DNA of 64,000 nucleotides. Origin: Branchiostoma floridae. Its lineage: Eukaryota; Chordata; Leptocardii; Amphioxiformes; Branchiostomatidae. Below are positions 14,798-50,157 of the stretch, piece by piece. Positions within the stretch are counted from its first letter, which is position 1. The number at the start of each line of letters is the position of its first letter. The notes below the pieces were generated by a model. The model had not been told where the DNA came from, ran no database searches, and saw only the letters and a list, made by a program, of their open reading frames with translations. The stretch is from contig NC_049988.1 in NCBI RefSeq assembly GCF_000003815.2, positions 1,718,678-1,782,677 on the forward strand, in the 5' to 3' direction. A program made the position numbers and the translations under genes.

Positions 14798-14940
14798 CAC
14801 CCCATACAAGTACCGTTTTCACTTACAAGAGGTTAACGGTGGTCACAGTGATGCAGTTACAAGTGAGCTATGAGACGTCTCCTGTCTCCTGAGAGAGACT
14901 GGTAACCACTTACAACTGGATCAGAGAGATGGGCATGTGT
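14798..14940 (+). repeat. Left terminal inverted repeat (143 bp)
   Basis: Starts CACCCCATACAAGTACCG and ends GATGGGCATGTGT. Matched base for base by the reverse complement of 49747-49889 except at three positions. Outside these limits the two ends diverge at once. Confidence 0.95.
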
Positions 14941-15139
14941 ACCTAGCATGATCTAGCATGTGTCCAGTGCATAGCAACAATGCCACGTGCAGAAAGAGGA
15001 CAATACTCGCGAGACTTTGGTGATGGTACGAGATCCAGGCTCGGGATGCGGGATTTTTTAGGTGGCTAGTATCTAGTATCAGAACCCGGAATTTGTTGTC
15101 TTGTTTGACTGCCAGCAGTTGCTCAAGTCGACCAGTTCC
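14941..15139 (+). promoter_or_regulatory. Probable promoter and 5' UTR of transposase gene
   Basis: The 199 bases between the left TIR and the ATG of gene A. There is no TATA box that I trust. The TIR itself may hold transposase sites and promoter elements, as in many DNA transposons; that is inference. Confidence 0.4.
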
Positions 15140-18100
15140 ATGGCGAGGTAAGCACATTTTAATACTTAACATACTTTACTGGACATTTAGAGGTTAATAG
15201 TCAACTACCGCTTCTCACTCTCTTGTGTTTTGTGATGTATATGCGCGCTTCGGCCACGCGCGGGTGAAGGGGGAGGGGGGTGCATCAAGCACGGTGCACA
15301 TATCATGCATCATATAGCGGTCATACATGTATCCAAACCATAAAAGGTGGGTTGGTAACATTCTAACATGAATCCAGGAGTACCAACTATTAATAGATAC
15401 AGAAACGCAGCTACAGAAACTATGAAGACTAAAAAAAGTCGAATCGAAATTAGGTGCTTGCTTTAGCCTTTAACCAACAGATATTCCCGAGCTCATATTT
15501 TCCCGAAATTTTGGCATCATGGGAAAATTTAATGTAAAATGAACAACTTGAACTATGGTGTATAGACCATATCAGAAACGATGCAAGGAACTTGCCGCAG
15601 TAGCTTTTAACAGGAATGTTTTGTTTGTATTATCATGCTCTCACACACAGTCACAGACTTGGGGGTTTGATGAAAAAGCTGGGATGTGCCCCTGGCCTGT
15701 ATAGCTAGCCTGGCTATGATATCCCCCCAATCATGCGCCCTAAAATGGCTAGCCTTTCATGTATCTGCACCTTCTAGCAGAATGTCAACAAATTACAGCC
15801 AGAGTGCTTGTAAAGAGCATGCAGATCGCTTGTAAACAGTAAAGTCATTTGATCGAATCAGGTTTCGATTTGCCAACACGTACACAGGAATCAGATTCAA
15901 TGCGCTCGGTGATGGAAATCACCAACAAATTGCTGACTGAAAATCGTTACTGGCTTGATCCTGTGCTGATTTATTGTGGGTCACAATAATTATAGGGCTC
16001 TATTTCTGGCATGTTTGTGTGTTGTATGATGCTTTGCAGTTGCAGAGTACACAGGGTGTGGTTTCATAATTGAATTAGTTGAAATAGATATCTATTCAGT
16101 CCCACCTACCTGCAGCTGGATGTGCAGATATAGCACTTTTACTAGTTTTAGTTTGTTTGTTGACAGTTTGGCAACTATACCGTACAGTATACCAAATTTG
16201 GCACAAAATTCTGCCCCTGGTGTACACATCCCCAAATGAACCTCAAACACATATAGGACGAGTTGGATGTAGGATCTTTTCTATTCAGTTTAATTTGAGC
16301 TCAATTTAGTAATTTCATGTTCCACTTTTCTCACTAAGATTAATCAGAATTTGGTTGGGATGAATAGCAAACATAGAGACCGGCAGTGGCATGTTTTGGC
16401 ACCTTCAATTTTCTGGCAAATGCTCTTGACCAGTTCCAGCTAAGTTTTGCAAGTACAATTGTGGTACTCAAAGTACTAGTAGGTGTAGGGCAAAGTCATA
16501 GGACTCATAGGGTTCTTCACGTATGTTACTGTGATATATCTTTTGTCAGCAGTTGTCAAGTAGTTAGTGCTTTGCCGGATATTTCAATTGTTTTAATCCA
16601 TGTTTCTAACCATTTGTTAGATTTTTATGTGTATCAGATTTTGATTGGATGAAGATTTCTAATTATACATGTTAAGGGAGTTTTCTAATAGTATTTTCAA
16701 TTTATGACCATAGATTCTTATCTTTGTGATAGCTCTTTGAACTACAGAATTAGGTAATGAATTAGCCATATAGATTTAGACTAGAAAGGCCAACATTTGC
16801 TTGAGAGCAAATACAGCATATTTCAGCCATCTCCCTCATGCAACAATACGCCTTGAGGTCGTTAACCCCTTTAGCCATTGGAAAATGACCCAAAAAATTC
16901 TCAAAAATATCATTTTAAATTGTTCCATGCCAAAAATTATACTTGGGTCATTTGGATAAATATCTAGAACACCCCTTTACCAAATTTCGGGTCATTTGGT
17001 TGTAAAACGAGGGAACAGGAGCCCAAAATGTCCAATTTTTGTCAAAAAATGGCCATAAAATCGCAATATTAAGCATTATGTTGTACTGTATGGAAAAACT
17101 GTTCTTGAATTCATGTGCACATAATTGAAGGGCACTTTTATACCAAATTTCAGGTCATTCGGTTGTAAAAAAAAACGAGGGTACAGGAGGCAAAAATGTG
17201 CTTTTTTTTTTCAAAAAATGGCCAAAAATCGCAAAATTAAGCATTTTGTTGTACCGTATGCCAAAACTGTTAGCAAATCTGGGTGGGCATATGATCAGGG
17301 CACCTCTGTACCAAATTTCATGTCATTCGGCTGTAATACCAGGGTACAGGAGCCCCAAATATACATAAAAATTGACAAAAACCTCAATAAAATCATTTTA
17401 AAGGCAGAAGAGAAGAGAGAAAGAGAGAAAGAAAGAAAGAAAGAAAGAAACATTACGAATACAATATATTTCACCATACCTATGGTATGGCTGAAATATA
17501 ATTAGACATAATTAGACATTATTTCTATTTTGGTTTATCTATAGATCTGATTTTTCTTCTCTGTAAAGTACAGTATACAATTATGTATACCACTACTTAA
17601 CTTTGTCTGTAATTAGCCCTCGGGCCTGAACTTGCAATAAAGAATATTGTTATTATAATATTGAGAGCAGAGACAGATGTGTTCAGACACTACTTATATC
17701 TTATATATAAACTTCGTCAACTTCTATTATAATCTATATTCACTTTTCTACAGTATCTCAAAGCGAAGGAGGAAAACAACGTTGGGATTCTTTGTGCCAG
17801 GAACAAAAGTCACCATTTATGATGACAATGGCAGGAAGAGGACTCACTGGGTGCAGGTGAATCCTGGAGGCACATCCACGGCTAGACCTACTACTAGTAC
17901 TAGTACTACATCTACAGCAACAGACCAACACTTAGCCCAGTCTTCTGAGGCTTCTGAGATACCAGTAGAACCAGCATCCTACACCCAAATCAAGGAAGCA
18001 TTGAAAGAGGCATGGGCAGAGAAAAGAGACGACCTCATTAAGACAGCTATTCAGTCAGCTGTACCACCAACTTCTATGTGCTATCTGTGTGAAGAGGAAG

Positions 18101-21100
18101 TTCTCACAGCCCCACTGATCTTTTGCAAGGATTGCAGTCCACTTGGAGTTTTCTGTTTTAGATGCTTTGAGAAGATTCATAAGAGTCCCTCACTCCACTG
18201 TGCTGAGGAGTGGAAGGTGTGTTGAAATAAAATTGTGACAATGCTTTGTTTAAATTGTATGAGGAAATCCTCCACATGCATATACATGTGTACCTATGTT
18301 GGAGATATTTGCATGATCTGGCTTCTGTAAGAGGTTTAAGTTAGTATATCCTTGTCTTTCTTGTGATCTTATTTCTACTTATTTCTTTTTACATAGCATG
18401 ACATTAACCTATGCCTTGAATGTAGTTCTCTACATCACAGAGCATATGCTCTATACTAAATTAGTATAGCACTCAGTTACTTGATAATGTCACAATTGAT
18501 ACAAAATGGATCTCTGCTCATTTTTCAGGATGGCTGTTTTCAGCCGTATGTCTACAATAGACCTCTAGTGCTGCCTCACCAGAAGAACTGCCACAGTTCA
18601 AGCTACAAACCTCTTAGGGTCTTTGATCAAAATGGTGAGTAATGCAATTTATTTGTTTATTTTTGTCTTTTTAGTTATAAATAGTGTACAGTCAAACCTG
18701 TATTAGTGACCACCTGGCCCTGGCCATTGCGGTCATTTTTTGTCGGTCCCTTGGATTTGTCCCATTTCCTATTAAGAAATAGTCTATCACTGGAACCTGT
18801 CCAGCAGGGGCACAACCACACAATTCACAACCACACGATTTCTGGTCCCATAGATACAGGAAAACAGCCTATTGCGACCATACAGTGACTGTATGTCACC
18901 CTGAGTTTAAAATTATACTTTTGGAGGATTTCCCGACAGGGTCATTTTGGTGGTAGCGGATGATACCATGCCTTCTTGAACGTTAGAGAACTTAGAGTAC
19001 AAGTCTTTGTCAGTGAATTTACCAACAGCGCATGGCAATATCAATCATTTTTGGTAGATTTGACTTTGACAGGGTCAGTTGGTTTTTGTGACGATTGAGA
19101 CAATGTTACTTTGTGAAAAAGATTAGTGGGTACTGAAATCATATGTAACTTATTGCTTGTGGTGAATTGATCAACATTTTCTTTAAGTGGCCACCTGTCT
19201 ATAGTGGCCACATTTCCCCAGTCTCTTGAGTGGTTGCTATAGCCTGGTTTGACTGTACTGTTTGTTGTATTGTACAAGAATGGTTGCTTCAAAGGTGTAC
19301 ATATTAAAATTCAAAGCCACAATAGATGTATTTTGTAATGTGAAGAAAATATTTTTGGTAATGTAAAAGTTATCACTGAAAGAAGTGTTAAGAATTGATA
19401 GCTTGAAATAAATATGCAGGTTAGTGCAGGTAGTTTTTATGTCTAATGTAGTGCTAAGAGTGCCTGTTTGGGAACTAATGACTAAGGGAAGCTAGCATCA
19501 AACCTTCCTTGAGTTTCCTGTTTACTTCAATACACGTGTACACGTGATTCAATACACGTGGTGATTCAGTGTTTTGAAGATTTGGTAGTTTAATTATAAC
19601 ACAGTCTCACTGGACTAAGGGAAGTAATAATCATTTATTGTTCTTCACACATGGACCTCATTTCAGTCATGCAATGTTGAAATATGTGGTATTTCTTATT
19701 TGACACGAGCACTGGTAGTGGTAGGATTACGTTACCTGCGCCAGATCTGCCTCTTCCATGCAGCCTGTATGTGTGTATTTGAGGATTTCTGTTTTCTGTT
19801 TCCTGTACTGTGTCATGACTTTTGCCAAGTAGGTTATACTTTTGGTTGTGCCATGGTGGAGTGGCTACACTCTTGCTGTGGATGTATGTCAGTACCAAAA
19901 GAAGACTAATTATGCATAGAGGAGCTAAATGTGCATAGCTGATGCACTAAAAACCTTTGTGGGTATGTCAAGACATTTTCAGCCATGGAAAGTATTACCC
20001 TTATTGCAAAACTTTAAAATGTTTCAAGTATTGTACCATATCATACCATCCTCCTTAACATTTTGATTTGCCTTGTAATTTCCCTCAGGCCGCCTACAAC
20101 ACTTAGATGTTGCAGTGTGCAGATGTGGATATGAAACTGAATTGCAAACATTGCTGAAGTTGGGACTGTGGGGAGCAACACCCACAAATCCAAAGACAGC
20201 TTTTTCTGTTTCACTCCTGGAATGGTTGGTCTGGCTGTGCAGAGAGGCCCAGGTGTCAACATTAGCATTCTGCAAGGCAGTTAGATGGAAAAATGATTTG
20301 ACACTGAATGAGGTAAAAAAAGTTTTTTCTTGATGACCTATTACTGATTTGAGTGTGTCTTAAAAAAGGAAAATAAACAATTAATTTTTTTTTCTAAAGG
20401 TTGAACACTACATAGTGCTGTTTCTCTGTACTACTGGTAATATAACTTGCTCACTGCTGTTTTCTATTATTTTGTAAATGCATGTTCTCAAATCCAGCTG
20501 AATTGCTCACCAGTGTTTCCCTGTAAGGCTTACATAACAACATCAAGTTGTTGAATTTCAAATTTCATATTCCCATGCTGAAATGGAGAATGTGACATGT
20601 TATATCTGCTGAAAAATGTTTACCTGTCAATGCATGAATGTGAAGTAACAACATATCAGGCATATCTTAAGTATGATTCAGAACAAGTTACTTGCAATTC
20701 TTTTGCATTGTGTCACAGCATACTCCAGATTTTCATTGTATTAGTGTCAGTTTTGGTTAACCTGCTTTTCAATCAACCAATGCTCTGAGTCCATTTGTCT
20801 TTTGTTTATTTTGACAGATGAATTCTCTCCATCGGGCCCTTACTGGAGAATGTATTGCCGAATTTCGCCACTTTCAGCACAGGCTGGAAAGCATGAAGGA
20901 CTTGAGTCCTTCACTTGATGGTGGAATTAGCTGTCCTGCTTGTCCCAAGGTATATCATATATATTCCTCTCTTCCTGCATTTTTTAGTGTGTGCGTTGCT
21001 CATTTCTAGATGTAAAGCAACGACTTGATGATGCAGTTGCCCACTTTATAGATTTCCAAACTGTGTTAAAACTTAAAGAATTTGTGCTGCTTTCAATGCT

Positions 21101-24100
21101 TCAGTGCATATTAGATCAGAAATCAGATTGTGTTTAACATAACGCATTTGGGTACATTTGTCATTTTAACCAATGTCCTTGACAACTTATTGGAAGTTTA
21201 TCTATTGGCTTTCCTAATTTATTAAGCAAAAGTATGCATAGAATGTGAAAACATGATTAAACAATAATGTCATAGTATATATTTTCTTCTTTTTCAGAAT
21301 GATGGGGAACAGATCATTGCAATTGATGCAAATTTTGGTCTGGTCAGAAAGGCAAGCTCTGGTACAAGTTCTGCACCCCCCCTGCATGGACAGTCCATGT
21401 TCCTGGAAGATGAAAAACTGAAAGAGTTCCTTGCTGACTACTATGATGAAGAGAAGCCATCTGAGGTAAGTTTCTTTCTTCAACGTCATTCTAGGTATAG
21501 ATGGTATCGGCAACATCAAGGAGGTTAAAAACCTCCTTGGTAACATTATGTAGTATCCCCTGCTTATCTTTGCTTTTGTAAATACAGACCAACTAAATGT
21601 ACCAAAATTAGCCTCAATATATATCATTTATACTCTCCAAGCAGAGGTTAGGCTCCAGCTGTTTTTGAACGTTTTTTTAGTTGTTTTTATCGGGCTTTCT
21701 ATTTTGTCATTTTTTTTTTTTGCTGTGTCCGGCCTAACAGCGAAAAATAGTGACAAAATAGAAAGCCAGATAAAAACGACTAAAAAAACGTACAAAAACA
21801 GCCGGAGCCTAACCTCTGCTTGGAGAGTACTAGTATATCATTTAGGGATGTTGACTACATGTTTTTTCAAATCTATTTGAAAGTCTCTCAAATAAGATTT
21901 AAAATTACATGTAACAGCATGCACTATCTTGTGAATTTGAAGCCTCCATTTGAAGGGACCATGTGAAACTAAGACGTGCGCATGGTACTATTATTATGAA
22001 GTTTATTGCAAATTCTTGCCAATAGGCTAATTGCAGGTAACACGATAGATTCAAACAGTGTAAAAACAATAATAATATGTTTAAAAAACAATAATAATAT
22101 GTTTATTGCAAGTTAATTGCAGGTACAAACAACATTTATAACAAGGAAAATACAAAGGTGCTAGGATCTACATTCTATGTACATTATACTGGTTTTGTTG
22201 GGTTTGACTTCTTCTTTAAAGCAAGCGATGTACATATGTGTCTACTCTAGTCTAAAACTAGTAAGTATATCCAGTTTAGTGTTAACCCTTGTGCTTGATA
22301 CAACTATGTTCATTTTTGTACTTAGTCATGTAGAAAACGACATACCAAAATTGTTTCAAAATGCCTTGTTGTGAAAACTATATATTCACCAATCAAACAA
22401 GTCTTTGTGTTTACATAAAAACATGTCTCCCGCAAATTGACCATGAATTTTGATGGATGCAATTCTTTAATTTTTTAGAGATTCTGAACTTTGGATTCTT
22501 TTTCTTGCTCTGAATGAAAGTCTGACTGAATATCATTAGCCAAATAAGAAATATAGCCGCAGATTTTCATACTATAAAAGAAATAGGAATACTTGTTTTG
22601 GATTACATCATTTTCTTCAGATGTTTTTTGTTGCTGTTCTTTCTACATCAGGACTGTAGCCACTTTAAAGCTGGACAGTGCCTACGCTCTAAGGCACAGC
22701 ACCAAAAACTGGATGTCACTGGCGTCTTTGGGAGTGTTTGTAGGCATAACATCCCACTGAAGTTTCTGAATATGTTCCATGGAGAACGGTGGGTGTGCTC
22801 AGTTGTCTTAATGTAACTTATTGCTCTGATTATGTTCTTACAGTTAAAGCTTTCATTCAAAAATGGTTGGATATTTTCAGCGAAAATACTTTATAGTATA
22901 CAACACCAGGCACATGTCACATTGGGTGAAAGAGTACAATGTTTTTAACATCATCTTATCACCAGGGTAACATGTTTGTAGCTTTATTGAACATTACATC
23001 TTTAGGTCTCATTCATTGGCATATATGTTTTGTGTATCACCATTTGCTTCAAGGCATTGTCTGTTGGGAAACATTTTAAATCATTCATTCTTTCTTGAGT
23101 ACTTTCATCATGCTCCAAAGGAATTAGTGTAACTTTTGGTATGACTCATGATTCAGGCAGTGGTTTGTTTATCATCTTTGTCTTCTGTATCATCTCCAGC
23201 TTTGGATATCCAGTCTTCCTAATCAGGAACCTGCTCAGAGATGCCAAGCTGCGGAATATCAAACTGAAAATCATCTATGATGTTGCATGTTCCCTAAAAG
23301 CACACCTTAGAAAGGTAAGTTTTTCCAAACTTTTTACAAACAAACAAAATGACATGTATGAAACTGAAAGTTGGACCAGACAATCCAACTTCCATTTTTT
23401 GTATAAGCAATGAGTTTTTGTCTATAAGTACACTTCATGAGCTTCAACACCTTGCGCTTGTGCTACCAGTATATATCCAAATTTAGCAGGGCCATTCTGT
23501 AGAAGATTTAATACCTTAAAGGGGGAGTATTTCAACAGTTTTTACACAGGTAGATTGATGCAGTACAATTTGATTTTAATTAATAAGAGTTTATTATTGT
23601 GCCTTATTACACTGGTACCATATATTATAAGACAGGAGTATTTCTTTTCCAGAGTAAAGACAAGGAAATCAAAGAGATGCTGCCACAGCTGAGTCTGGCT
23701 GTGGATGTATTTCACTCATATGGTCATACACCTCTATGCCAGGTACGTGGATCTTAAGTAAGCCTTATGTATGTATGTATAAGCCTTACATAATTTCTGT
23801 GGTCTCAATTGTGATTTCATGCAAGCTTATAAGGGGACCTTTTTAAGTTGAAAATTTTAGAAAAAAAGGTTGTTCATGCTTTAATAATGGAATGTCTAAC
23901 ATTAAACTGTCAACTTTGTCAGTTGTTAGGGAAGAAAAAGCAACAACTGGACCATGGCATAGGTGATTTCAGATGATTTTGCCACAAACCTGTTTGTCAA
24001 GGTCCTTAAAGTGTTTTTAGTTTACAGTTGTTTAGTATTTTTTGTTCTTAGACATTTGCATGTATTATTTCAGGTCCAATACAACACCAGAAGACTCGAG

Positions 24101-27100
24101 GGCTATGGTCTCACTGATGGGGAGGGAGTCGAATCTTTGTGGTCATACCTGCGCAGGTTTGCTAGGATCACTAAAGAGATGACCCCAGCTCACAGGTTCG
24201 AGAAGTTGAGCGATGCACTGGTCCATTTTGCTATGCGGAAAGCCATAGACATTGGTGTGTGGTCCTTCTTTGTTTTCTACATATCATAATCAAGGATATT
24301 CATTACCTTTTGACTGCTTAAGTACTCAAAATTTCAAATTGAATACTTACATGTATGTATGTAGAAACATGACCACTGCATGTATGTATCCCAGTTGAAG
24401 CAGTTTAAGATTACTTATGCTGAAAATGATGATAGCATTTTGAAGTCCCATTGCTCCTGTGTTGAACATCAAGCAGGTCATGTGGTAAGATATAATTGTA
24501 CAACAATAGAGAATTTTGACTATGGCAACAAAGCCACCTTTAAGGACTCTTTTATGTTTTTGAAGTTAAAATGTCCAGTTAATGGGATAAGATTGATAAT
24601 GTGCAGAAATTAGGGTCTCAAAACAGTGACAACCTCACATATTACTCCAGTGTACACATTTTAAATATTTCAAGCCCCGTATTTGAAATATGTACATATT
24701 TAGAATACATACATACATGCCTGTTTGGTTGTTGTCTCATTGTGATGTTCCATTGTAATGTAAATTGAATGCTACCTTGTCTTTCAGAGGTTACTCTTAA
24801 AGATAAGATGAGGAACACAAAGATGACAGAAACGATTGCAGATGAAAATCTCAAAGAAGCCATGAGCCATGCAGGAGGTAAGAAAAAGGCAAATGTTTCT
24901 TTTCATTGACACCCTCAGCCAGTCATTTCTGTGTAAATTACAATCTTGGAACTTTCTGTCTGGCGCACCTTTATGGACATAGAGTGGAGTAGAGTAACCT
25001 TCAAACTGGATAGCTTTGTTGGCCATCATGAGTTGCTTTTCCCAGAGGTCTTTCCTTTTTAAATTTAGCCACTAAATCTCTTGGTTCATGTAATAAGTCT
25101 GTATCTTCCTTTGTATATGCTTCAATTGCTGTGCAAGTATCTCTGCAAGGAAGATTTATTCTTACTTTCCTAATCCTTCAGTTCCTGTTTCACTGGATGA
25201 CATCAAGAGGTGGCAGGAAATGGAAACTGAATTGATGAAGAAGAAGAAACAACCATCAAGTGAGTAAAAAAAAATGCATTTTGGATTATCGGCCTCAGTT
25301 GTTGCATAAAGAAATGTAGAATGGTAATATGTACCTCACACCAGTAATAGAACATTTTCCAGAAATGTATCCCCCTCATTGCTTTCCTGGCTCATTTTAC
25401 TTGTAACGTATGATAATTAAGTAAGTATAATAATAATTATAATAATAATGATAATAATAATAATGGTTTATTCAGAAACAACAGTTTTGCCACATTGCAG
25501 CCATGGGCTGAATTGCGTGGGAAACTTTACAGTCATTGAAATCGACAATAGTATGCGTATATTGTAATTTAGTGTTGCTTGTGTTTCTCTAAAACTACAT
25601 CTGATTGACTGTGAATAAGTGCAGTGTAATTTTGCTCATGATTGCTTATGATTACATTTTGACCCCTGTTTCAGAGAAATGCAATAAAATAAATCATGCC
25701 ATTTAATTGAATCAGATGATCCTTGTTTTGTTTACCTCTACATTGTTTTCTTTTTTTTTTGTAGCATCAACCTGTGCCAAATGGATGAAGGAATATGCAG
25801 GCAAGTTGGTGAGACATCATAAATTGGGGTAGGCTATATTTCCTTCAAAAACTGATATGATTTAGGTATTTTCTTTCAGTCTAGTGTTTTGTGTATTTAA
25901 GACATACATCATTCTGCAAAAATTATTGACATATGTCAGCCAATGATATTAAGTAATACAGGTTTTCCTTGCAGGAAGAAAATCCAAGAGTGCCAAGATG
26001 ACTCTGCTCTCCAAGTTCACCATTCAGCTTTCCTAAAGTGAGTACTTGTTTCAATGTACCTAGATGTTTTAATAAGTTATAAATATGTTTGGCTCTAGCT
26101 AGCTCAAAATTTTTATCCGTCAGCCAATTCCCATTGTTGCAAAAACTGCAAAAATTACCTGATTTCGCTATGACACTACAAGGTAAATGTTGTCATTGAG
26201 AGAAAATATGACACCACTTTAATTCTTTTCATAAGTAATGCCTACTATCTATGATATCCTCTGACAGATATGAGTGAAAATCTAGATGCAATTGATTTCC
26301 AGGTTGGAATCCACCCTGAAGGGTATTGAAGGAGAACACGGCATTACAAGATGGCAGCAGAGTAGCCCAGAATTCAAGGCAGCACTGAAAGACCTCGACA
26401 TTGAGGAAAGAAAGCAACGCCTCTCAACACTACAAAGTGTGTCTTGCCAGAGATCATTTTTGATCTCACTTAAAGGACGTTACCCAGGTCAGTGTCCAAC
26501 TTGTTTCCAACACAAGTCTTTGAATGAAAGAATGACAAATCAACAGCATAATCGATTTTACTTTTCAACATAACTCATACAAATGGTGTTTTTTATGTAC
26601 AGATAGCTGTGCTGTTATGTTAGGTCCATGTGTTAAAAATCAACAGATTACCCCTGTGTAGCTACCCTGGATACCAGACCCCAGCTCGATGTCCAAATAT
26701 ATCGATTGTGTGGGCATCTGGCCTGATGAGATAGGCCTTCTTCTCAAGTTTGCCCAAATAGTTGGCAAAAATCCACACCAATATAACAGCAGCAAGATCA
26801 GCAGGAGGCAATTTACACCCGTCATGATTGCTTAAAAAACCCCAATTGTATTGTTTAATCCATAACAGTGAGCACTAAGAAATGAAGTGTAGCAGTACTG
26901 TTAGATAAGACACCCCATGTCCTGCTGGGTTAGAGGCTGTTACCTCATAATCGACATATATTTAGGATTTTTATTTCCCAGTAATGTTTCAAGACACCTT
27001 GTTTTATCATCATTATATTTTCTGTGTTGTTTAATCTAGTCACCACATAATTAGATCAAAACTGTTTACAAAGATGAAAACAGTGGTTACTTTGGTCACC

Positions 27101-36102: not shown

Positions 36103-39100
36103 ATGTCAGACTTTTCAGCGAATGTTCCTAACCCCAACCCTGTGATGACCGTACAACAATCTTCGACACCTGGTTTCAACAACAGTGATCTCGACACGGA
36201 TCATTCCACGCTACCTGCCCAAGTACCAAAGTAAGACTTTAACTTTTAACGTTATATACATTATGAGAAAACAAAGAATCTGCACATTTTTGTCGGTGGT
36301 AACTACCGCCTGCCTGGCCAAAACCTAAACATCGAGTGTAGATAGGACAAGTTTTGGTGAAAACGCCCTTTAACACATGTGCACTTCTCTTCTCGAGGTC
36401 CAGTTTCCTCACAGCTTCACCGTCCACGCGGTGAGGCCAGCCCTTGTCGCGACATGATCGTAAGGGTGTCAGAGGATAATTAGACATATTTCAATATAAC
36501 TTCCTAGTATTGTAACCTCTCAAATGCTGGCGACTTGGTGGTCAGCAACTTCTAATCTCCGCATGGTGGCTGGGCGACACCTAAATGACCAGCGTTGAAT
36601 CCGCTTGGAGATATTAAAAAAAAGTAACTTTCACCTAAGAGCACTCGCCACTGTCAAATTATCCTTTGTAATTTCCTTGAAAAAAAAGTCCCAAGTCTTC
36701 ATTCAGATCAGAGACAGTATACGTTAACTGACGTAACGTTATCAAAAATGTACAATCCAATGCAAAAATTCAGCGGAAATACTCTATTGTTTTGATACTG
36801 TATAACACCACTCAGCTATCCTTCTGTGCAGCGCCGGCGTTTATTTTCGGCGGGGGGCATTTTCCAAGAGAAACCGTATGTGCAGACGGCTTCTACGATT
36901 TCTCCCACCAAGGAGCTTTCGTCTGACTGGCGTGCTTCAAAAGAACAAAAGAAATGCAAATCAAACCTTCCTCAAACAATAACGACATCACCACACCAGA
37001 AGCCCACAAACCCAACCTCACTTGCAAGGAGGTGATAAAAATCTCTCTGTTTATATTGCTAGTGTTAGGGAAATTTGTGGCAAGCGTGCGCGGGAAAAGG
37101 CATTGGACGGGTCATTTAGCACAGGGCAGGCGGCATGAGAAGATTTAAATTTGTAAGGAGTGCGAATGAGCGGTGTCGCTTAGATATCAGACACTTTTTA
37201 AAAAGCCATCATAATTATAATGTGGCAAACCAGACGCGCCTACACCAAGAAGGTTGAACCTCCTTGCCCACACACACAAACGTGACCTAATGATGAAGAC
37301 CTTTTTTTAAAAAATAAGTAAAGACCTTTATTGCACATTTTTGCCCCAAATGGGCCAAGTAAATATCTCATAGTAACAAGTATAAACATGTAACAATGGT
37401 AACAATCATGCCATTATATATCTATATGTAAGTGAATTTTATGGATGATTATCCCGACAGACTGCAAAAATAGTTAGATAGGGCGGAAAAAACAAGATAA
37501 AAAAACAAGATGAGAAAATAAGATTCAAAATAGACATCACGGCCAACTGAGCATTCATTTCTGTATTCAAGACAAGTACTGGTGTATTAAAAATAAAAGT
37601 TACACTAGTGTGGTGGACCGGTGTTTACTTATCAAGTTGGCAACTATACTCATGCATGGCTGCCATATTTGTGCCATTTTTAAAACTATCCAATTCCAAC
37701 TAGTTTCACTTCTGCAACTAAACTTCTACAATTCCAATCAACAGACTACATGTGAAGCTAAAATTTGCCCATTTTGGGATAATTTGTCATCACGTTGACC
37801 ATCTCTTAAGAAGAAAAATTTCTTGTTTTTCTTTTTAAATCAGGTGATTTTTAATGAGCGTGCTGATGTCATCCACAAAATTTACATGCTTTGACCTAAT
37901 CTGCAGTAGTACATTTGACTTCATGATCATCTCACCTCTTGCATGGTACTTGCATAAATGTAGCTAGCTGTATGATTGGTTAGAGTAATGGTATCTTGAA
38001 CTAAAAGGCTGAGAGGAATATAAGGTCATGTAAATTTCTCTTTACTATTCAAGCATCTGAAGTGGAGAAAATTCATTGTACGTGACGCGCCAAGTGCAGG
38101 GCAGGATGTTAATAATAAGTTCTATTAAAGAGGTTCTGAATTATCTAAGCACAAGTACTAGTTCTGGTGAAGTAAGAACAAGATATCTTACTACATGCAA
38201 CAACAAAGCCTATAATGTATGCTAGTATGTAACAGATATGGCAGCATTTTGTAGGCCTTTCAATAACTAAAGCTCCATTGCCCCAATTAGCAACAATTGC
38301 ATAATAAAAATTAAAAAAATTAAAAGCTAATGATGTATTTCTGATGGTAAATTTCTATCATTTTTGTCATTAAAGCAAAATCAAGTGCATTTCATAGATG
38401 TAATACACAAGAGGCGAGTAGAAACAGTTTCCTGGTTCCCGAGAATTGAACCTGGGCCCGCCATTTTGATAACCCAACATCATAATTGCTACTCCAAAAG
38501 ATCTAGACAATTAAGAATGGTCAGTTGGGGGTGCCTGAACAGATCACATGTCACAGATTAGATCCTCTGCAGTCCAGATTTATTAATGCTACCAATATCA
38601 AATACTGCAGCAGCAGAACAGAGTGGACTAGTACCTACCAAGAAATATCAACATTCACTCAGGATTTCTTGAGTTTTGCTATTCATGCACACACGTATCA
38701 CACTTACAGTTACAGACAATATACAAATTCACATACACAGACCTGCACACACACAAACACACACACACACACACACACACATACTCATTCAGTCACACAT
38801 ACACTCATATACACTAACAAACACACACACAAACTAATTCACACTCATACACACACTAATAGACATATTCACACACTCATAAATACACACACATACCCTA
38901 ACACACTCACATAAACAGAGTGACACACACACTCATACAGGGTTGTAGCCAGCCTGAAATCATTTTCAGTCCCCTTGATTTTGAATGGGAATCCTATTGA
39001 GCACTGAATGCCTGGTGTGACGTTGCGCGTCATTTCTAGTGGGTCTGGGTCCCAGAAAAGTTTTTAATCAAGACCCTCTGAAACAAAATTTCCTGCATTT

Positions 39101-42100
39101 TGAGACTGAATGGGGAAAACTTTTTTCAGTCCCCAGCTGCAAAATTCCTTCGTAAGCTGCAAAATTCCTTCGTAGGACTGAAGGACAGGTGCTGGCTACA
39201 ACCCTGCACTCATACACACAGACACACACATTTACACATAGATATAATCTGAAAGACATAACCACTCCTTTTGATAGAGCAAAGAATCTTTCAATTTTGT
39301 AGTTAAGGTAAAGTAGAAGATGAAGTACATTTACCGTAGATTGCCCTTTGTATGATAATTCTATTTGACTGTGTGTTAAATAGATCTCTCCCCTTCAGAC
39401 ACTTGAAAAGTAAAGAGAAATTCATATTCCTTACAGCTTTTGATAAATCAACTCTAACAATCCAGACAGCTAGCTATATTTATGCAATCACCAAGAAGCG
39501 AGAGGAAGTTGAATGTACGAGAGTAAATTAGACATATATAATATTAATATATGCACATACACATACAGAATGCATGACTGTTTCCATTGTTACATGTATA
39601 TATGATTGTGACCTATAATCAGCCCATTGGGCAAAAATGTGTGATAAAGGTCTTCTTTATATATTCAATACACTAATCCATACAGGCACAAATACACTAA
39701 CACACACACACACACACACACATTCACACACTCAGGCACACTCACTCACACACACACACACACAAATGGCTACTTTAAAATTCTTCAAGGTACTTTTAAG
39801 AAGACCAACTCATGTGAATACATGTAACGTTACATGTTCTGTCATATGATACAGTAGATGTATTGGACATTTGGTTGTTTCAATTCAGAGCTGATTTAAA
39901 TCAATATGCATTTCTTCCTGCCAGGAAACGAAGAAAAAACTTTACGGCAGAAGAGGTGGCTATCCTGAATGATCTGTGGGGCAAAGGGATGACCGAGGCC
40001 CGGTCAACAGGGGCCCAGAGACTGGTAGAGCAGGCTGCCGCACTCACTCACAGCACTACAACGGAGATAAAGGTCAGTGTTCCTCACATAGCATGCATGA
40101 CATTTAACATGGGTTTACAAGCAGACAACAAGCCTGAGGAAAAAAATTCAATTTGAAAAAACATTGATACAATATCAAAATATCAAAAGAACTGTATGAA
40201 ATTTGTTCACTTCTGTGTTCCTTTTTCAGACATGGGTCCACAATAAGAGGAAGAACTTGCAGAAGGCAGGTGGCAACGCACGACCCAAACGAGTGCGACC
40301 AACCAAGAGGAAGAAATCTGCTCAAAATGTCTATTTGAGTCAGAGGCTAGCAGGTGCGCCTCTAATTTAATGCACATACATTTGCCTGGGTTAACATCAA
40401 GTAATACCCGATCGTTACAAACATCACAGCAAAAATATTGTTGGTTGTGAAAACAAAAAATTTACAGTACTTGTAATAACATTGTACAAACGTCAACTAC
40501 ATTGTACACTGCTACACACTGCTATAATCTCAAACTAGAGTCGGCACAGCACAGTGTTTCAACGAAATACTTAGACAACGGAGCAGATGGATTATATGGA
40601 GAGCATGATTAAGCCAAGAAAAAAAAGATGTTCAAATTGTTAACAACAAAGTGTCATTTCAGAAAATAGACCTTACCAGTAATTTTGACAAAAGAATTTA
40701 GTTACAACAATGATTTTGAAAAAGGTATTGTGAGTTAACTGTACTTTCTTCTAACTACCTACTTTTCACTAAACCCCAAACTATCATATCCGATGTGAAT
40801 ATAGAGGGAGCAACATTAACTGCGGCTCAGCAGGAGTACAGGGAGATCAAGGCTGAGAATGGGGATAGGCTGCGGCTGCTGCAGGCAGAGGCCAAACAGG
40901 CCAAGCCTGTAACCCTTGAAGACCTGTCGACAAAAGACAAGAGGCTGGAAGCCAAGACTCTGATTAAGAAGTTACAAGACCTGGTGAGAAGGTTCATCTT
41001 CCTAACAAGTAACAGCAAATCTTTTCATATGAAAAACAACTAATGCTAGTAGTGTCAGCAACAGTACCATATTTTAACTTTGGCTTTGCAGTTTTTTATG
41101 TAATGTGGAGAAACGTTAAGCTATCATGTCTTATTAGGCACTATTTAGTGACGTTGATAATTTTATTAAAATGAAACGACTGAATTTTGTTTCAGGCACA
41201 CGAGTTTGAGACCTGCAATATGGAGGTTGCTGTGCTGCTGTTCAGCAAAGACCACCCAGGAGTGGGCTGTATTGGAACCAGAAAAGGGAAACAGTTCCTT
41301 ATAGACCAAGAGCCCCACACTGCTTTATCTTTACAATTTGCCAAAGCCATGAATGGTAAATTTTTGTTGAAATCTTTTTTTTCTTCTTAAAAGTCAATCC
41401 GTTAACAAACGTTGTTGAATACTGATTGATTTCGAAAGTGAGTAAAAGTAGATTTTAATTCATACTTGCTGTGGCCTTAATGACAAAACAAAGTACATCA
41501 ACTGATCATGCATCCTTTTCCAGATGGAAAGGTCCCAGAAGCGGCTAACAACACATGTACACTAGACCTGGCAAAGGAAGTCAGAGCCATGCTCAGTGAG
41601 AAGTATGGTAGGTGCACTTCCTTAACTGTCATTAGTAATTTTGGTGCTATTTATAATGGCTCACATAATTCTGACTAAAGTAACACACATTGGAAAACAG
41701 TTTTTGATTCCACTTACTTACATTGTACAAAACTGCTCGTTTCTCATTTGAAAGGTTATTATCAACATCAGAGCTACATTTTTAAACCAAATATATGAAC
41801 AATTTTCAGAGGCCCTGACAGGCGACAAACGAGGGTTTCCATACCAAAGGTTTAGCCTGAAGGATGGAAGCATCACCGTGCACTGGATTCCTGAGGGCAT
41901 AAGCATCGACCACATTGCATCCATTCGTAAGGACCAGCTGGAAGCACTCCTTCAGGAAAAGGACAACATAACAGTTGAAAGTAAGTTTTTAAGGTATTCA
42001 GTATCTATTGCACATTGTATCAATTGATCTTATCATAGATAATTATCTTATACTAGAGTACCATAACTTCAGAATCAAGACAGAAATCCACGAAAAGCTG

Positions 42101-43444
42101 CCTTGTTTCTACTTTTTGGACTTGATTTAACTTAACTTAATTCTACCACTTGCTATAGTACCACCAAGAATTTAAAATCCCTGTTATAGAGAGGCCTCCA
42201 CAAGATTGTTTTGAAAATCTTATTTTGTAAAGTAATTGTACCTCAGATTACAGATGGTAAAAACTTAAAAGGACAGACACTACACACTAGCTTGCTTTCA
42301 AACGGAAATAGAAGTAATTTAAGTATTACATATGCCAAAAAAGAAATATGGAATCTGATAATTGTTATGAAAAATGTTTCACTTGTCAGTTCACAGCACA
42401 CCGAACCCACATGCTCCTGATCCCAGCAGTTCAGCCGCAGGCACATCAATGGGTGAGTCCCAGCTGCAGGAGACAAACTCCACCTCCATGGATATGGCAG
42501 TGGCTACAACAGGTCCCGCAACCAGCAGGATGGAGGAGTCCATGGAGATGGATACAGAGACAGGAACTGGTGGAGTGGATGAGGAAGTGTCAGAGAACAC
42601 TAATCCTGCAGGACCAGGTATGGGACCAATTCTTTGACTTCTTTGAAGTTGTCCTGAAAAGATGATTGTTTTATCATCATGTTTTATCAAAGATGTCCAA
42701 CATGTACAAAGACCTGGTAACATGCACATGGCCTACTAACTTCAGCAAGTATTGACCAAGGTAAAGTCTTAATTGATATCAGATATGCAAAACGAACAGA
42801 TATACAACAACGCAACTATATTGAGACTTTTATTTCTTTAACTGAAAAATAGCATGAATTACGAAAGAAGATAACTATTATATTGTTGTGACTGAAAAAG
42901 AGACTGTGCATACAAGCTAATAGAATTTGGTGTTTTCAAAATGTTTTCTACAGGTACTGAATGCATGGAGCTGTTGCTGAACTTGGAAAGAAAGATTTCT
43001 GAGAAAGTGACACAGCAGCAGACAGAAGACAGTGAAGGAGAGGAGAACATTTCACAGAGTGACAAAAGGAAGACTAAAGGAAGAAAGGGCAAGGGGAAGG
43101 GCGAGGGGAAGAGCAAGGGGAAGGGCGAGGGCAAGGGGAAGGGCAAGGGGAAGGGCGAGTTGAAGGGCAAGGGGAAGGGCGAGTTGAAGGGCAAGGGGAA
43201 GGGCAAGGGGAAGGGCGAGTTGAAGGGCAAGGGGAAGGGCGAGTTGAAGGGCAAGGGGAAGAGCAAGGGGAAGAGTAAAGAGAGCAGCGAGTATTATTTT
43301 GTAGAGAAAATTATGGACACACGCATGAAAGAAGGTGAGATCCAATTCTATGTCAAATGGCAGGACTATCCTGAAAAGGATAACACATGGGAGCCATGGT
43401 ACAATATTCCCTCGGAAGTCAGACAGAATCTCTGCCAGTACTAG
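36103..43444 (+). CDS. Homeodomain-like and chromodomain protein (gene B), 9 exons, 570 aa
   Basis: Exons: 36103-36230, 39925-40072, 40230-40353, 40805-40983, 41196-41355, 41524-41607, 41810-41980, 42390-42617, 42954-43444. All junctions are GT-AG, all phases fit, and the 1713-nt frame is open. Residues 1-42 are polar. About 43-104 look like a diverged homeodomain: basic KKRRKNFTAEE, helix with ILNDLW, and a recognition helix TWVHNKRKNLQK (W and N at positions 48 and 51 of the fold). A basic tail, a helical stretch and an unrecognised middle region (FETCNMEVAVLLFSKD, FPYQRFSLKDGS) follow, then an acidic Ser/Thr-rich part, a Lys-Gly repeat (KGKGE) and a chromodomain (about 517-570: YYFVEKIMD, FYVKWQDYP, NTWEPW). 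A chromodomain usually reads methylated histone tails. Lying between the same TIRs as gene A, it is probably an accessory or targeting protein of the transposon; this is inference. Confidence 0.85.
37300..37420 (-). mobile_element. LINE 3' tail fragment, gene B intron 1
   Basis: AAGACCTTTATTGCACATTT, then TGCCCCAAATGGGCCAAG; on the minus strand a tail with GCAATAAAGG. A related tail in + orientation is near 39615-39655. Confidence 0.5.
38740..38937. repeat. Degenerate (CA)n tract in gene B intron 1
   Basis: ACACACAC runs mixed with CTCATAC and ACTAA units; continues at 39207 after the MITE. Confidence 0.9.
38938..39206. mobile_element. hAT-like MITE in gene B intron 1
   Basis: Terminal repeats CAGGGTTGTAGCCAGC and GCTGGCTACAACCCTG are perfect 16-bp inverses. 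An 8-bp duplication CACTCATA flanks it (38930-38937, 39207-39214). CAGGG ends plus an 8-bp target are typical of hAT. It has no transposase frame. A 20-bp piece (GCTGCAAAATTCCTTCGTA) is doubled inside. Confidence 0.92.
39690..39765. repeat. (CA)n microsatellite in gene B intron 1
   Basis: ACACACAC tract with CTCAGGCACACTC interruption. Confidence 0.9.
43083..43275 (+). repeat. Purine-only coding repeat (Lys-Gly-Lys-Gly-Glu)
   Basis: Units AAGGGGAAGGGCGAG and AAGGGCAAGGGGAAG repeat in the last exon of gene B. The + strand is nearly all purine. It encodes a basic linker before the chromodomain. Length is likely variable between copies. Large minus-strand frames here are shadows. Confidence 0.9.
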
Positions 43445-45275: not shown

Positions 45276-45990
45276 ATCATTATGGGTATTTCTTGTTTTG
45301 CTAGATGTTTCACATATTTGCCTTGATGAATACATAAGAATAATATTAAATGAGAAAAAAGATATGCCAACCCTTTCTAGAGTTATTCTCTTTCAAAGTT
45401 TAAATGAAATCTTCTTTCCAAGAGCTATCAACCACTATTTAAAAATAATTTCCATTGTACTTCTGGAACAAGAGATACAATGTATCAGAATAAGTTTTAC
45501 TACAGTATCATAACAAGCTGCTAGAGGGCCCCATATGTAATCTGTTTGAGGTGACATACGTTTGTGACACAGTTATATACCTATAGTATATATCTAGGTG
45601 ACACAATTTAGACACAAATACAAATGCTGCTGAAAACATAACCTTCTTGGCAAAGGTAACAATGCTCGAGGACGTTATATAATAATAATTCATGTCATAC
45701 CAGGGCCGCGATAACGTTTGATACAGGTGTTCGGAATCGTGTGATAATAAGCCGTAACACACGGGCTTAATTATCAATTAGAAGTTGTATCACACAGGCT
45801 TCCATCGAATATTTCGAACATACACTGCACACGCCAGAGTGGCGTAGTCGAAAATTCGAATACCTGACTCGGACATTGGACCATTGCTGTTGTAACGTTT
45901 GTTTGAGGGCACCAATTTCTTTAACTTATGGCGCATTTCGCATCCAAATACAGGTGGATGTGTTTTCTCAGGTGGGTATGACATAAATAA

Positions 45991-46122
45991 ATACAACACG
46001 GTGTATTCCGCATCACCCTCAGCCCCAGCCCTCCCGCGGGTCGGATCACCCTCCAGCCGTCGGGCGATCCTTCCCGCGGTAGGGCTGGTACCTCGGGTGA
46101 TACGGAATACACGGTGTTGTAT
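45991..46122. mobile_element. Small foldback MITE (ATACAACACGG ends)
   Basis: ATACAACACGGTGTATTCCG at the left pairs with CGGAATACACGGTGTTGTAT at the right, with CCTCCCGCGG/CCGCGGTAGGG pairing inside. 132 bp, no frame. Confidence 0.85.
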
Positions 46123-46548
46123 TCTATATAAAACCTTGCAATGCCCCGTCTGAGGTCACCTACTTCTAAATTTGTATGTCATGTGTGGTGCTTGTATATT
46201 TTGAACACATACCTTTTCATCCTTTCAAAACATATTTTCGTTCATAAAAATATCTTAAATGCTTAGCAATTTTCTTTCAAGCCTCATTGTAGATCCTGAT
46301 ATGTGTAGTCCATTGCATTCATATTAGTATTCTCCTAAGAAAATCCTACTTTGCCCTCTTACTGAGGTGGATTTGGCAGATCCTTGAAGCTGAATTCGGA
46401 CCGTTCATACTAGGGGTGGATAATGGTATGGTGGACCGGTACAAAACCGTTTTTCTTAGTGGACCGGTCCTGAAAAACCAGACCTGAAAAAAATTGGTGG
46501 ACCGGATGTTGGACCTATCATAAACAAAACAGATTATATAATCAGGTA

Positions 46549-47308
46549 ATGATACGATTTTTAAGACTTTATATCCGTACACAAAAATAAAGCGCTTACC
46601 AACAAGCTTTCGATCAGTCCTCTGATCCTTCTCAAGTTGTAATGACCCAAGACCTAAGTCGCACTTCCGGAACGGAAGTGTGACGTCAGTAAAGGGTCAA
46701 AGGTGCTTGACAGTCGGTATCGGCCCCCGTCTCGGTTGAGGGAAGGTTGGTGGGCTCTGATGTAAATGGCCTCTTTCACTCCCCTGAGAAAGTAATCCTG
46801 TTCGGAATCAAGTATCTCCACCTTGTCGAAATCCACAGAGTGTCCCGGAGATTCTATGTGGATGTGTTGTGCCACCTCCGATGTTTTAACTGAGCTGGGC
46901 CGTCTATGCTCTAGAAACCTGGTTCTGAGAGCGCGGCTAGTTTCACCTACGTAGGACTCCTGACAAGGGCCACGGATGTTTTGGCCTTGGCAAGGAATGT
47001 GGTAAATGACACCACACTTATCAGCCTTTGGAGTTTTATCCTTAGGTGCAACCAAATACTGTCTCAGGGTCTTTGTGGGTTTGAAGCACGTTTTGGGCCG
47101 ATACCGACTGTCAAGCACCTTTGACCCTTTACTGACGTCACACTTCCGTTCCGGAAGTGCGACTTAGGTCTTGGGTCATTACAACTTGAGAAGGATCAGA
47201 GGACTGATCGAAAGCTTGTTGGTAAGCGCTTTATTTTTGTGTACGGATATAAAGTCTTAAAAATCGTATCATTATGTTAACTACCGTCACAGATGAACTT
47301 ACATTCAA
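46549..47308 (-). mobile_element. Penelope-like element, truncated, with inverted terminal arms
   Basis: A 13-bp duplication ATATAATCAGGTA flanks it (46536-46548, 47309-47321). Inside are two inverted arms (46548-46726 and 47095-47273) that match at every base of 179, plus a 35-bp extension next to the right arm. Terminal arms in inverted order and a short extra end are known from Penelope-like elements. The core keeps only a GIY-YIG endonuclease; the reverse transcriptase is absent. Confidence 0.85.
46654..47118 (-). pseudogene. GIY-YIG endonuclease fragment of Penelope-like element
   Basis: About 150 residues on the minus strand. The GIY-YIG core is seen as CGVIYHIPC, then SYVGETSRALRTRFLEHRR (second Y, catalytic-type R), and further on AIYIRAHQPSLNRD at the end of the domain. 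Cysteines around CGVIYHIPC and GPCQE fit the Penelope type. The frame has no upstream reverse transcriptase and its two ends run into the terminal arms, so it is a remnant. The first codon of the open frame is GTG, not a true start. Confidence 0.8.
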
Positions 47309-47321
47309 ATATAATCAGGTA

Positions 47322-49746
47322 TTTATATATTTTGGGGCTTACCGGTCGAAAAAAATGACAAGAGCGCAGAGTATTTTTATAGTCATTTCTGTGAAGCTTT
47401 ACAACCAATGATACAGAGGCAGTTAGTCTAGTAGGATTGTAGAATGCTAGTGGGGGTCAAATACTCCACAAAACATACTTTTTGTAGCGAAATGGAGCAT
47501 TGTTTTAAGTATCTTCCATTCACATGTTTAAATGCAGAGAGCCAAGAATCATACAATTATTACCAGTTAAGGAGCATTGCACACTCAACCACTACATGTA
47601 CTAAGTAGGTGAGTTTTGCACAATGTGTTAGGAAGTTCAATTTTACTCTCCAAGCAAATATTGAGCTTCAGCTGGTTCCTGGCATCTTCTTAGTTTATTC
47701 AGGTTTTCCATTCTGCCAGGTTGATTCGGTTGAATCAAAATGGCTATAACCTCCTTGCTAGAACATAGCATTGAGGGTTGAGGCTGGTTCAATGTGGTGT
47801 AATAGGTAGGCTACTGATCTCACGGTCTCTAAAGAGTATTGTCACAGCAACTCCCTCACTTCACTCACTGATAGGTGACAATGAGTACCTAGTCCGTTTG
47901 GGGCATTGTTCCAATAGGACATTAATCAACGGAGGTCAAACAAATACGGCTTTCCAGAAAAGGTAGTGTAGGTTGTTATTACCATTGACTTACTGTTTCC
48001 TCAAGAAAATTCCAGTATAGCCTTGGTGCCCAGAAAAGATAGCCCGCTGCAGGTAGCCCACCCCACTAACCTAGCCCACCTTTTCTGGAAACCTGGATAC
48101 TACTACCACACCCCAAGAAAACACACCACAATATCAAGAAGACACTGGGTCATTCCAAGGTTTCCAGTGTGAGTGAATCAAGCCTTACAGTATTCGGTAC
48201 GTAGGCTACATAACCTTAACTAAGTTGAAGGCGATAGCCTAGAAAGGAAAGAAAGACCCTAATACCGCCCTAGGACATCTAAACAACATGCATGCAAATC
48301 TGAGTTCCACAATAATGTCATTTAAAAATGTAAATTGCAAAATACATTTGGCATTAGTGAAATGCAAACCTTGTGCATAATTGTTGGCGTTGATAAAAGC
48401 TCCATGGGACTGCTGTTCTCCTTGTAACGTTCGGTATTTTTCGCCATACCCGGTGTCTGAAGGTGCACAGTAGGCTGTGCTCCCAATCCCCTGGTTCAAA
48501 TTCCGATTTTCTGTTGATAGATTTTACTATATGTCTTGAGTTTGCTTGTCGCTGGAAGTGTTTCTAGATAAGAGTCAAGCCCATGTTTTCTCGATTATAA
48601 TGCATGCCGGCATGAATCAGCCGATTGCTCAATGACCTGCAGTGGCGCCCTCTCTCCGGAAGGAGGAAGAACGCCGGCCTCACCTTTTTTATCAGCTTGT
48701 TAATAACAGGATCAACATAGCTACATGGAACTTGCTCAAACCAACCCAAGGGCAGACTCGGGGTAGCCACCAACTCAAGTACCAACCAATTTTCGCCCAC
48801 ACAGACACATACAGATTCTCATAACGTTACATTCCTAGAACAATTCCGGAGTGGCATTCACTGTCTGGCGCGGTAGTAAGTGCTCCCACCGTTGAGTTAC
48901 TTCCATGCCGGGCAGGAGGGCTGCCCGCCCTAACCCGGGACCTCAACTACCCCCCCCCCCCCCCAATTTGCCCCTCGCAGGGTCATCATAATCTCGAACC
49001 AGATCCACGGTGTGTAATGTATAGTATCAAACTTCCCGTAGGTGCCCGTTTGACTCCCTTGGCCGTCTACACTCCTTGGTCAGCTTTGATACTATCTAAT
49101 GGCACCGTAGGATCTGCTTGGAGATTAGGGTCATCTGGGGGTGTTAACGATGATAATGATTATACGATGATGATTGTCGATATTCCAGTCTATACCGTTG
49201 ATTTTGTACAGTACAAGGATCAGGTGCCCATTTTTTTGCCACAACGCCCCCCTCCCCCAAAGGCGATTAACGTTATCAGTAAATTTATAGATCTGTCCAC
49301 AGAAGTATTTACCTAAAATGAAAATTCGATTCTATCACTATAAAATGCACATGACGAATTATGGCAGGGTCCCTAAAAAGGGATTAAACAGCGGCAGCAT
49401 GTAACATGTGTAGGTAGGAACTTTTACGATCGAGTGGACCAGGCCTGACCATCAGAGCCGCGATAAGTCATGCCGAGGGTTTAAAGAAAAAGCATAACTG
49501 CACTGTTTGCGAACCCAATCCTTTACAAGTTCCAACACATGTAGAAACAATACACCCAACTCACTTTCAGCTTATATTCTTGTCCAAAATAGCGCAAAAC
49601 TGTAATTTCTATAGCATATTCCTTGCGATTCCTTGGGTATATAGCATAGCTCCGGGTCGTCCAGGTCAACACGTACATCTAGGTGACCCATGAACCCAAG
49701 AATGACCTCATGTGTACTGATACTTGGTTACCCATCGAAAAACACA
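47322..49746. other. Right end of giant transposon, no gene recognised
   Basis: 2.4 kb before the right TIR. A copy of the ACTCTCCAAGC end lies near 47644. A run of about 16 C is at 48951-48964. 47830-47930 looks like dispersed repeat sequence. No exon is supported. Confidence 0.5.
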
Positions 49747-49889
49747 ACACATGCCCATCTCTCTGATCCAGTTGTAAGTGGTTACCGGTCTCTCTCAGGA
49801 GACAGGAGACGTCTCATAGCTCACTTCTAACTGCATCACCGTGACCACCGTTAACCTCTTGTAAGTGAAAACGGTACTTGTATGGGGTG
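49747..49889 (-). repeat. Right terminal inverted repeat (143 bp)
   Basis: Reverse complement of 14798-14940 with three mismatches. Ends CTTGTATGGGGTG directly before CGCTAGC. Confidence 0.95.
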
Positions 49890-50151: not shown

Positions 50152-50157
50152 AAGAAG

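Follow-up and report, generated by a model that had tools for sequence, protein, structure and literature searches.

The Florida lancelet Branchiostoma floridae carries, within a 64,000-bp stretch of contig NC_049988.1 (positions 1,718,678 to 1,782,677 of the forward strand; called the window below, in whose coordinates features are given), a 35,092-bp element at 14798-49889 that holds two spliced genes, a KDZ transposase gene (gene A) and a companion gene (gene B), and that interrupts a retrotransposon. The left terminal inverted repeat (TIR; 14798-14940, + strand, 143 bp) starts CACCCCATACAAG, and its counterpart on the right (49747-49889, - strand) terminates in ...GGGGTG. The two 143-nt arms are 98% complementary (140 of 143 positions identical), and the termini of the element read 5'-CA..TG-3'. 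Directly outside them, the 7-bp target-site duplication (TSD) CGCTAGC is present at 14791-14797 and, identically, at 49890-49896. An earlier note on this DNA, made from its letters, had placed the ends at these bases on account of the 143-bp repeats and the 7-bp duplication, and both held.

Gene A (15140-28449, + strand) consists of 17 exons encoding 904 amino acids (aa), as revealed by a letter-for-letter spliced map of protein P0001, which is the NCBI-annotated B. floridae product LOC118424401; this exact map also indicates that the gene is open along its full length. Exons 1-6 lie at 15140-15147, 17754-18216, 18529-18634, 20089-20312, 20818-20949, and 21298-21465; exons 7-12 at 22652-22788, 23200-23314, 23653-23742, 24074-24254, 24788-24877, and 25182-25259; and exons 13-17 at 25765-25828, 25975-26037, 26303-26487, 27224-27411, and 28027-28449. 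In P0001 the KDZ domain (PF18758) scored 157.6 bits (E = 5e-46) against a curated cut-off of 26.6, and two cysteine clusters, CxC2 (2.8e-9, 37.6 bits) and CxC1 (2.1e-7, 31.5 bits), were also above cut-off; CxC7 was absent among the eight Pfam matches listed for P0001 at E values up to 10. Across 43 aligned proteins (alignment A3), D321 and E498 are invariant and D440 is at least 90% conserved; these candidate catalytic residues, located in exons 6, 10, and 8, respectively, are what we take to be the D/D/E triad. The intact 17-exon KDZ gene described in the earlier note was thus recovered.

Relatives of gene A occur in fishes, echinoderms, molluscs, cnidarians, a priapulid, and fungi (at least 92 proteins). 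In these protein searches the approximately 8,000 candidates sharing most words with the query were scored, and the queries were preliminary models, in which the middle of gene A was wrong and gene B lacked exon 1 and had exon 3 added by hand. For 46 of the 92 proteins we built a quick maximum-likelihood tree, rooted on eight fungal rows and including no labelled Kyakuja, Dileera, or Zisupton reference. It clustered P0001 with proteins of B. lanceolatum and of B. belcheri type (Shimodaira-Hasegawa-like approximate likelihood ratio test, SH-aLRT, 100), and this group is itself nested among 26 lancelet and fish rows that form one clade (SH-aLRT 96). In the same tree very short branches join KDZ proteins of distant fishes (P0017, P0018, P0019, P0026, and P0027, from bass, minnows, and catfish), which hints at a recent horizontal transfer of a fish KDZ element.

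We searched a genome assembly of 513 Mb in 431 contigs, in which the window lies on contig C10. KDZ-domain matches, the window's included, numbered 12 at eight loci, and only the window locus sits within a pair of the TIRs described above; among the matches listed, every other KDZ match was at least 200 kb from a TIR match, the nearest being approximately 211 kb away on contig C6. Between approximately 21.4 and 28.0 Mb of C6 (assembly G000) we also observed many KDZ exon matches, some interrupted by stops, together with two damaged gene B fragments. On another contig (G000:C19:9729806-9730063) a KDZ match falls within a 434-aa open frame that may represent a KDZ lineage poor in introns or else a domesticated gene.

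Gene B (36103-43444, + strand) has nine exons encoding 570 aa (36103-36230, 39925-40072, 40230-40353, 40805-40983, and 41196-41355 for exons 1-5; 41524-41607, 41810-41980, 42390-42617, and 42954-43444 for exons 6-9). It likewise corresponds letter for letter, when spliced, to an NCBI-annotated B. floridae protein (P0093, LOC118424216) and is open along its full length, in agreement with the second intact gene claimed earlier. Exons 2-3 (39925-40353, + strand) encode a homeodomain-like region, recognised from a Pfam match below cut-off in a related protein, from an engrailed-type chain in the PDB (4qtr, 1.3e-4, using the three-sequence profile A2), and from three confident helices in an otherwise weak structural model of that related protein, P0094. 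Exons 6-7 (41524-41980, + strand) encode a GTF2I-like repeat, which matched PDB entry 2dzr at 8.7e-6 with profile A2; the Pfam family PF02946 scored 22.0 bits in P0093 (0.00021), below its cut-off of 27, and exceeded that cut-off in the relatives P0094 (30.0 bits), P0101 (34.1 bits), and P0013 (31.5 bits). The last exon (42954-43444, + strand) encodes a lysine/glycine-rich repeat and an HP1-type chromodomain (PF00385, 3.8e-12), closest to HP1 itself (1kna, 4e-11). When P0093 was aligned to 1kna, the HP1 cage positions were filled by Y, W, and Y, and in P0101 the first of them is non-aromatic; which residues form the cage is our assumption, supported at position Y24 by the Y24F entry 6asz. A structural model of gene B from three sequences was weak overall (predicted local distance difference test, pLDDT, 46.9), its confident portions being the homeodomain-like, HMG-like, and chromo parts.

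The element interrupts a repeat whose left part (13758-14797, + strand, including the left TSD) contains the RNase H end of an open reading frame (ORF; PF00075, 3.7e-20) and whose right part (49897-50156, + strand) supplies the last codons, the 3' end, and an ACA-type tail; judging from the RNase H domain and this tail, the host is probably a long interspersed nuclear element (LINE). When the flanks were joined with one copy of the TSD, the RNase H ORF reached its own stop (...RLDIVTLA to the left of the junction, GMREDLGEETNKMMYKAFSKYIEDTGRFAGED and two stop codons to the right), as the earlier note had said of the split frame. Because one of the two other right-flank frames is likewise open (68 codons), the open frame alone is modest evidence. 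The sister copies of this LINE decide the matter. A 251-bp query of the joined flanks found 29 genome matches, and in 12 of these at least 236 bp ran unbroken across the junction, at 92-100% identity, three listed ones being identical over 249 bp; each of the 12 is a sister copy of the host LINE with the site empty, and the CGCTAGC that the earlier note had suggested looking for is present in the empty LINE sites once. With longer flanks, five of six fetched LINE copies aligned without a gap over 1,236-1,300 bp (99.0-99.6% identity), and the sixth aligned over 508 bp (98.8%). The left part by itself was 99.2-99.6% identical to the same five copies over 979-1040 bp and 99.6% identical to the sixth over 241 bp. 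The host LINE family is itself young, with nine 249-bp matches to the joined query at 99-100% identity on nine contigs.

Since the paralogous empty sites cross the junction, the whole 35-kb element moved as one unit. Its insertion is younger than the host LINE copy, so that the 0.4-1.0% by which this copy differs from the five others bounds its age. Divergence between the TIRs was considered as a clock and not used, as insertion does not equalise the TIRs at the two ends of a DNA transposon. Heterozygosity in sequenced amphioxus species is reported, in the available part of the source, as 3.2-4.2% (PMC12500494), and because the LINE difference is far below this, the insertion appears young relative to standing variation in such species. 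Both the arrival in one piece and its recency, proposed earlier from the ends, are therefore borne out.

A genome search with the left TIR, also suggested in the earlier note, returned 36 places, i.e., 34 besides the two in the window. The 36 comprise 22 in 11 facing pairs (the window's pair counted), two in the same orientation on contig C3, ten single matches, and two partial ones. TIRs do therefore occur elsewhere without gene A, which taken formally is the outcome that the earlier note had named as speaking against the element; however, 20 of the 34 further matches are the ends of the ten further facing pairs, which lie 7.8-14.2 kb apart. We fetched 11 relatives, ten of them with both ends; the C3 copy, with one end in the fetched stretch, was excluded from TSD and identity counts. 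All ten two-ended relatives have the outer 15 bp identical at each end, and six of them are flanked by a perfect 7-bp TSD, while a perfect 8-bp TSD was found in none of the 11 elements (the window's and the ten relatives). Ten facing pairs, six with a perfect 7-bp TSD, mean that the gene-less TIRs support a transposon.

The TIRs of the relatives are 94-96% identical to the left TIR of the window. Counting aligned pieces of 300 bp or more, the relatives fall into a subfamily of six copies (97.5-98.9% identical within) and one of three (97.7-98.4% within), with 94.1-95.3% identity between the two. No DNA match was found in the ten relatives to 15.3-26.2 kb (most transposase exons) or to 36.1-43.4 kb (gene B) of the window. 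The three relatives that we mapped are roughly collinear with the window element, with the part at 30.4-32.5 kb inverted in the two long ones, and the matching interiors are mostly 65-86% identical to it (one 41-bp piece reaches 97.6%). This level of interior identity, when set against TIRs at 94-96%, suggests that a related element gave rise to the copies and that they depend on the TIRs. Coding capacity was considered for three of the ten copies: the longest stop-free frames were of 138 and 142 aa, plus 393 aa of internal repeat in a short copy on contig C5, and on inspection of the frames, made without a family search, none was taken as a gene. The sequence features of these pairs mark them as probable non-autonomous relatives.

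Gene B appears to accompany KDZ genes beyond the window, adjacency in other lancelets and in sturgeon being read from protein predictions. KDZ and gene B proteins come from equal-sized contigs in B. lanceolatum (P0002 and P0094) and in a floridae x belcheri hybrid (P0003 and P0101), a pairing that is weak alone, as the KDZ protein P0012 is also from a contig of such size. A B. belcheri prediction (P0059) is, over the aligned stretches, nearly identical in one part to the N-terminal region of P0003 and identical in another to the C-terminal region of P0101, indicating that KDZ exons are fused to gene B in this prediction. Two B. lanceolatum proteins, P0013 and P0006, have their first 625 residues in common and then continue as gene B and KDZ, respectively, consistent with two transcripts from neighbouring genes within a second KDZ subclade. 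In sturgeon, prediction P0062, a record labelled UNVERIFIED_CONTAM, runs from KDZ into homeodomain-end, HMG-like, and chromo segments. The pairing is thus seen across three species of lancelet and in two subclades of KDZ, and more weakly in sturgeon, and by these predictions gene B looks like a partner of the KDZ transposase rather than random cargo.

Taking these results together, we consider it highly probable that the element is an autonomous-looking 35-kb KDZ cut-and-paste transposon, which inserted recently and in one piece into a young LINE with a 7-bp duplication, and in which gene B would be a dedicated accessory. The exact ends, the TSD, the empty paralogous sites, the intact genes, the young LINE, and the gene-less relatives, which share its TIRs and the length of its TSD, are observed. 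Beyond these, the DDE transposase of gene A would bind the TIRs and move the 35-kb element in cis, and it may move the gene-less 7.8-14.2-kb relatives in trans. The gene B protein could bridge transposon or target DNA to methylated chromatin by reading methylated histone tails, either in choosing the insertion site or in keeping the element expressed against silencing. Among giant animal transposons, the element is a good candidate for one that still works.

Several observations weigh against this reading. The two TIRs differ at 3 of 143 positions; a perfect TSD is missing in four of the ten relatives; and the tenth relative, the short C5 copy, is only 94.2-95.7% identical to all the others and joins neither subfamily. 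The structural model of KDZ (pLDDT 82), compared with solved structures for the RNase H fold of such transposases, had its best PDB match at an E value of 0.07 in Foldseek, none being confident. Within gene B, the homeodomain family PF00046 was matched solely in P0094 (0.00039; 20.6 bits against a cut-off of 22.9), i.e., in one of the three stand-alone members, and the Pfam scan did not report it for P0093 or P0101; the HMG-box-like stretch is marginal (0.014) and confined to P0013. In the tree, sturgeon P0062 sits on a long branch apart from the other fish, outside the lancelet and fish clade. Finally, gene B is 40% identical to its B. lanceolatum counterpart, as opposed to 71% for gene A.

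This faster divergence of gene B between species is what would be expected if the element moved with gene B as a mere passenger, a host gene that had been captured and plays no part in transposition. The mobile relatives, in which gene B left no DNA trace, point the same way, as gene B need not act in cis and need not be carried by the DNA that moves; whether its product is required is not addressed by such copies. We nevertheless regard a passenger as unlikely, given that the pairing recurs across the lancelet species and KDZ subclades named above and that the sturgeon prediction, labelled as stated above, combines KDZ with homeodomain-end, HMG-like, and chromo segments. Moreover, a stand-alone host ortholog of gene B was not found in protein searches that scored approximately 8,000 candidates each. 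The first of these returned two lancelet gene B proteins and six weak matches (E values of 1.5e-5 to 8.7e-4), which we judged to be chance or common single domains, and the second returned five matches, four of them wholly or partly in the query and one a new relative, P0101. In the genome, a search with the frame of one gene B exon found it elsewhere at just two places, the C6 fragments, one frame-shifted and the other truncated; a search with P0013 matched gene B at the window only (best 43 of 88 candidates) and missed the C6 fragments.

A second alternative is that the 35-kb element is dead for transposition and that its relatives were moved by another KDZ transposase, unassembled or lost. 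The assembly contains a single complete two-gene copy, which may be a lone survivor, and the mostly 65-86% identity of the relatives' interiors implies that they derive directly not from the window element but from another one related to it. However, both genes of the window copy are open over their full length, this copy transposed after a LINE copy that is 99.0-99.6% identical to others was laid down, and none of the other KDZ matches listed lies close to a TIR match (all 200 kb or more away), so we think a dead element improbable. A third alternative, in which the ends are an assembly artefact or belong to two different elements, is very improbable: 36 such TIR matches could mislead an assembly, but it is rejected on the matching TSDs and the gapless empty sites, both genes are annotated on one contig of 23,931,428 bp, and this same pair of gene types is joined in gene predictions from other lancelets.

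Next, we compared the autonomous-looking transposon with known systems, using the accessible portions of the literature cited. Fungal Kyakuja elements share with it a KDZ transposase, 7-bp TSDs, and 5'-CA..TG-3' ends (PMC12730594); unlike the lancelet element, with its 143-bp TIRs and other companion gene, two Laccaria Kyakuja families lack TIRs and carry a gene for a TET/JBP dioxygenase (PMC12730594). Zisupton elements of fish, nematodes, and fungi likewise have a KDZ transposase, TIRs, and a multi-exon gene (PMC9297572), but Zisupton and the Dileera family Zisupton-1_PGr have 8-bp TSDs (PMC12730594) and platyfish Zisupton defines the CxC7 cluster (PMC12062965), whereas the lancelet element has a 7-bp TSD and CxC2/CxC1, with no CxC7 match. 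The mobile Cryptococcus elements KDZ1, KDZ2, and KDZ3 encode a transposase with KDZ and CxC1 and have TIRs of similar length (139-241 bp), but they are smaller (approximately 9-11 kb), their TSDs are of other lengths (8 bp in KDZ1; 4-8 bp in KDZ2 and KDZ3), and the available text of the report does not mention a homeodomain or chromodomain companion (PMC12810828). Because of the combination of CxC2/CxC1, a 7-bp TSD, CA..TG ends, and long TIRs, we call it a KDZ element and file it under none of the names Kyakuja, Dileera, and Zisupton. Chromodomain Gypsy retrotransposons are also mobile elements bearing a chromatin-reader domain, but theirs is fused to the retroelement integrase, while that of the lancelet element is a separate protein of a cut-and-paste element (PMC12477816). 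In size the lancelet element belongs with the giant eukaryotic transposons of more than 20 kb; a review of these giants was searched for the words KDZ, Kyakuja, and Zisupton, and its main text contains none of them (PMC6431247).

The earlier note had also held that DNA transposons of this size with two intron-rich genes are rare in animals. This stands in part: KDZ transposons are already known and multi-exon KDZ/Zisupton transposases have been described in animals, lancelet relatives included (PMC9297572), and the notable features here are the size of the element, its companion gene, and how recently it inserted. In the open-licence PubMed Central papers searched, among which the founding Zisupton (2012) and KDZ (2014) papers were not listed, we did not find an element of this size, a pairing of gene B with KDZ, or a dated insertion; in the accessible parts of the same literature, Zisupton together with chromodomain gave only unrelated mentions, and the combination of GTF2I, transposon, chromodomain, homeodomain, and KDZ gave nothing. 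A recent transposition of a 35-kb cut-and-paste animal element with two spliced genes is unusual, the Cryptococcus KDZ elements being 9-11 kb by comparison (PMC12810828). From the companion gene one can frame a concrete hypothesis of how an element of this kind copes with chromatin, and the gene-less copies with the same TIRs are natural substrates for tests of trans-mobilisation in an invertebrate chordate. More tentatively, and at somewhat less than even chances, one lineage of KDZ giants in chordates may consist of two-component transposons, made up of a transposase and a homeodomain-GTF2I-chromodomain reader that steers insertion to, or protects it from, H3K9-methylated chromatin, where the KDZ elements of fungi took up TET/JBP demethylases, and the 35-kb element may still be moving in Florida lancelets. 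If so, the KDZ group would have met host silencing twice with different chromatin tools, fungal TET/JBP demethylases and a reader.

The element also contains repeats of its own. At 46547-47274, inverted repeats of 180 bp that are 100% identical surround a GIY-YIG-like frame, for which a Pfam match at 0.01 was not found; taking the motif to be of the GIY-YIG type of Penelope-like elements, this nested insertion looks like a very young Penelope-like fragment. At 48626-48987 there is a dispersed high-copy repeat of approximately 360 bp, unclassified and resembling a short interspersed nuclear element (SINE) by size and number, which is 76-88% identical to 40 other listed matches; beyond it, no other part of 47300-49450 was matched among the best 40 of 4,385 candidates. 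Nested insertions may still account for the 35-kb length when the element is taken as a whole, those found being the short Penelope-like piece and the one SINE-like repeat. Lastly, six 146-bp repeats form a tandem array at 29493-30364. Similar arrays (approximately 69-73% identical) are present in nine of the ten two-ended relatives and absent from the short C5 copy, and among the relatives (L009-L027) the matched span varies from approximately 0.4 kb in the copy at 2.36 Mb of C10 to approximately 2.3 kb in that on C12, which gives the impression of a transposon that carries a satellite and spreads it.

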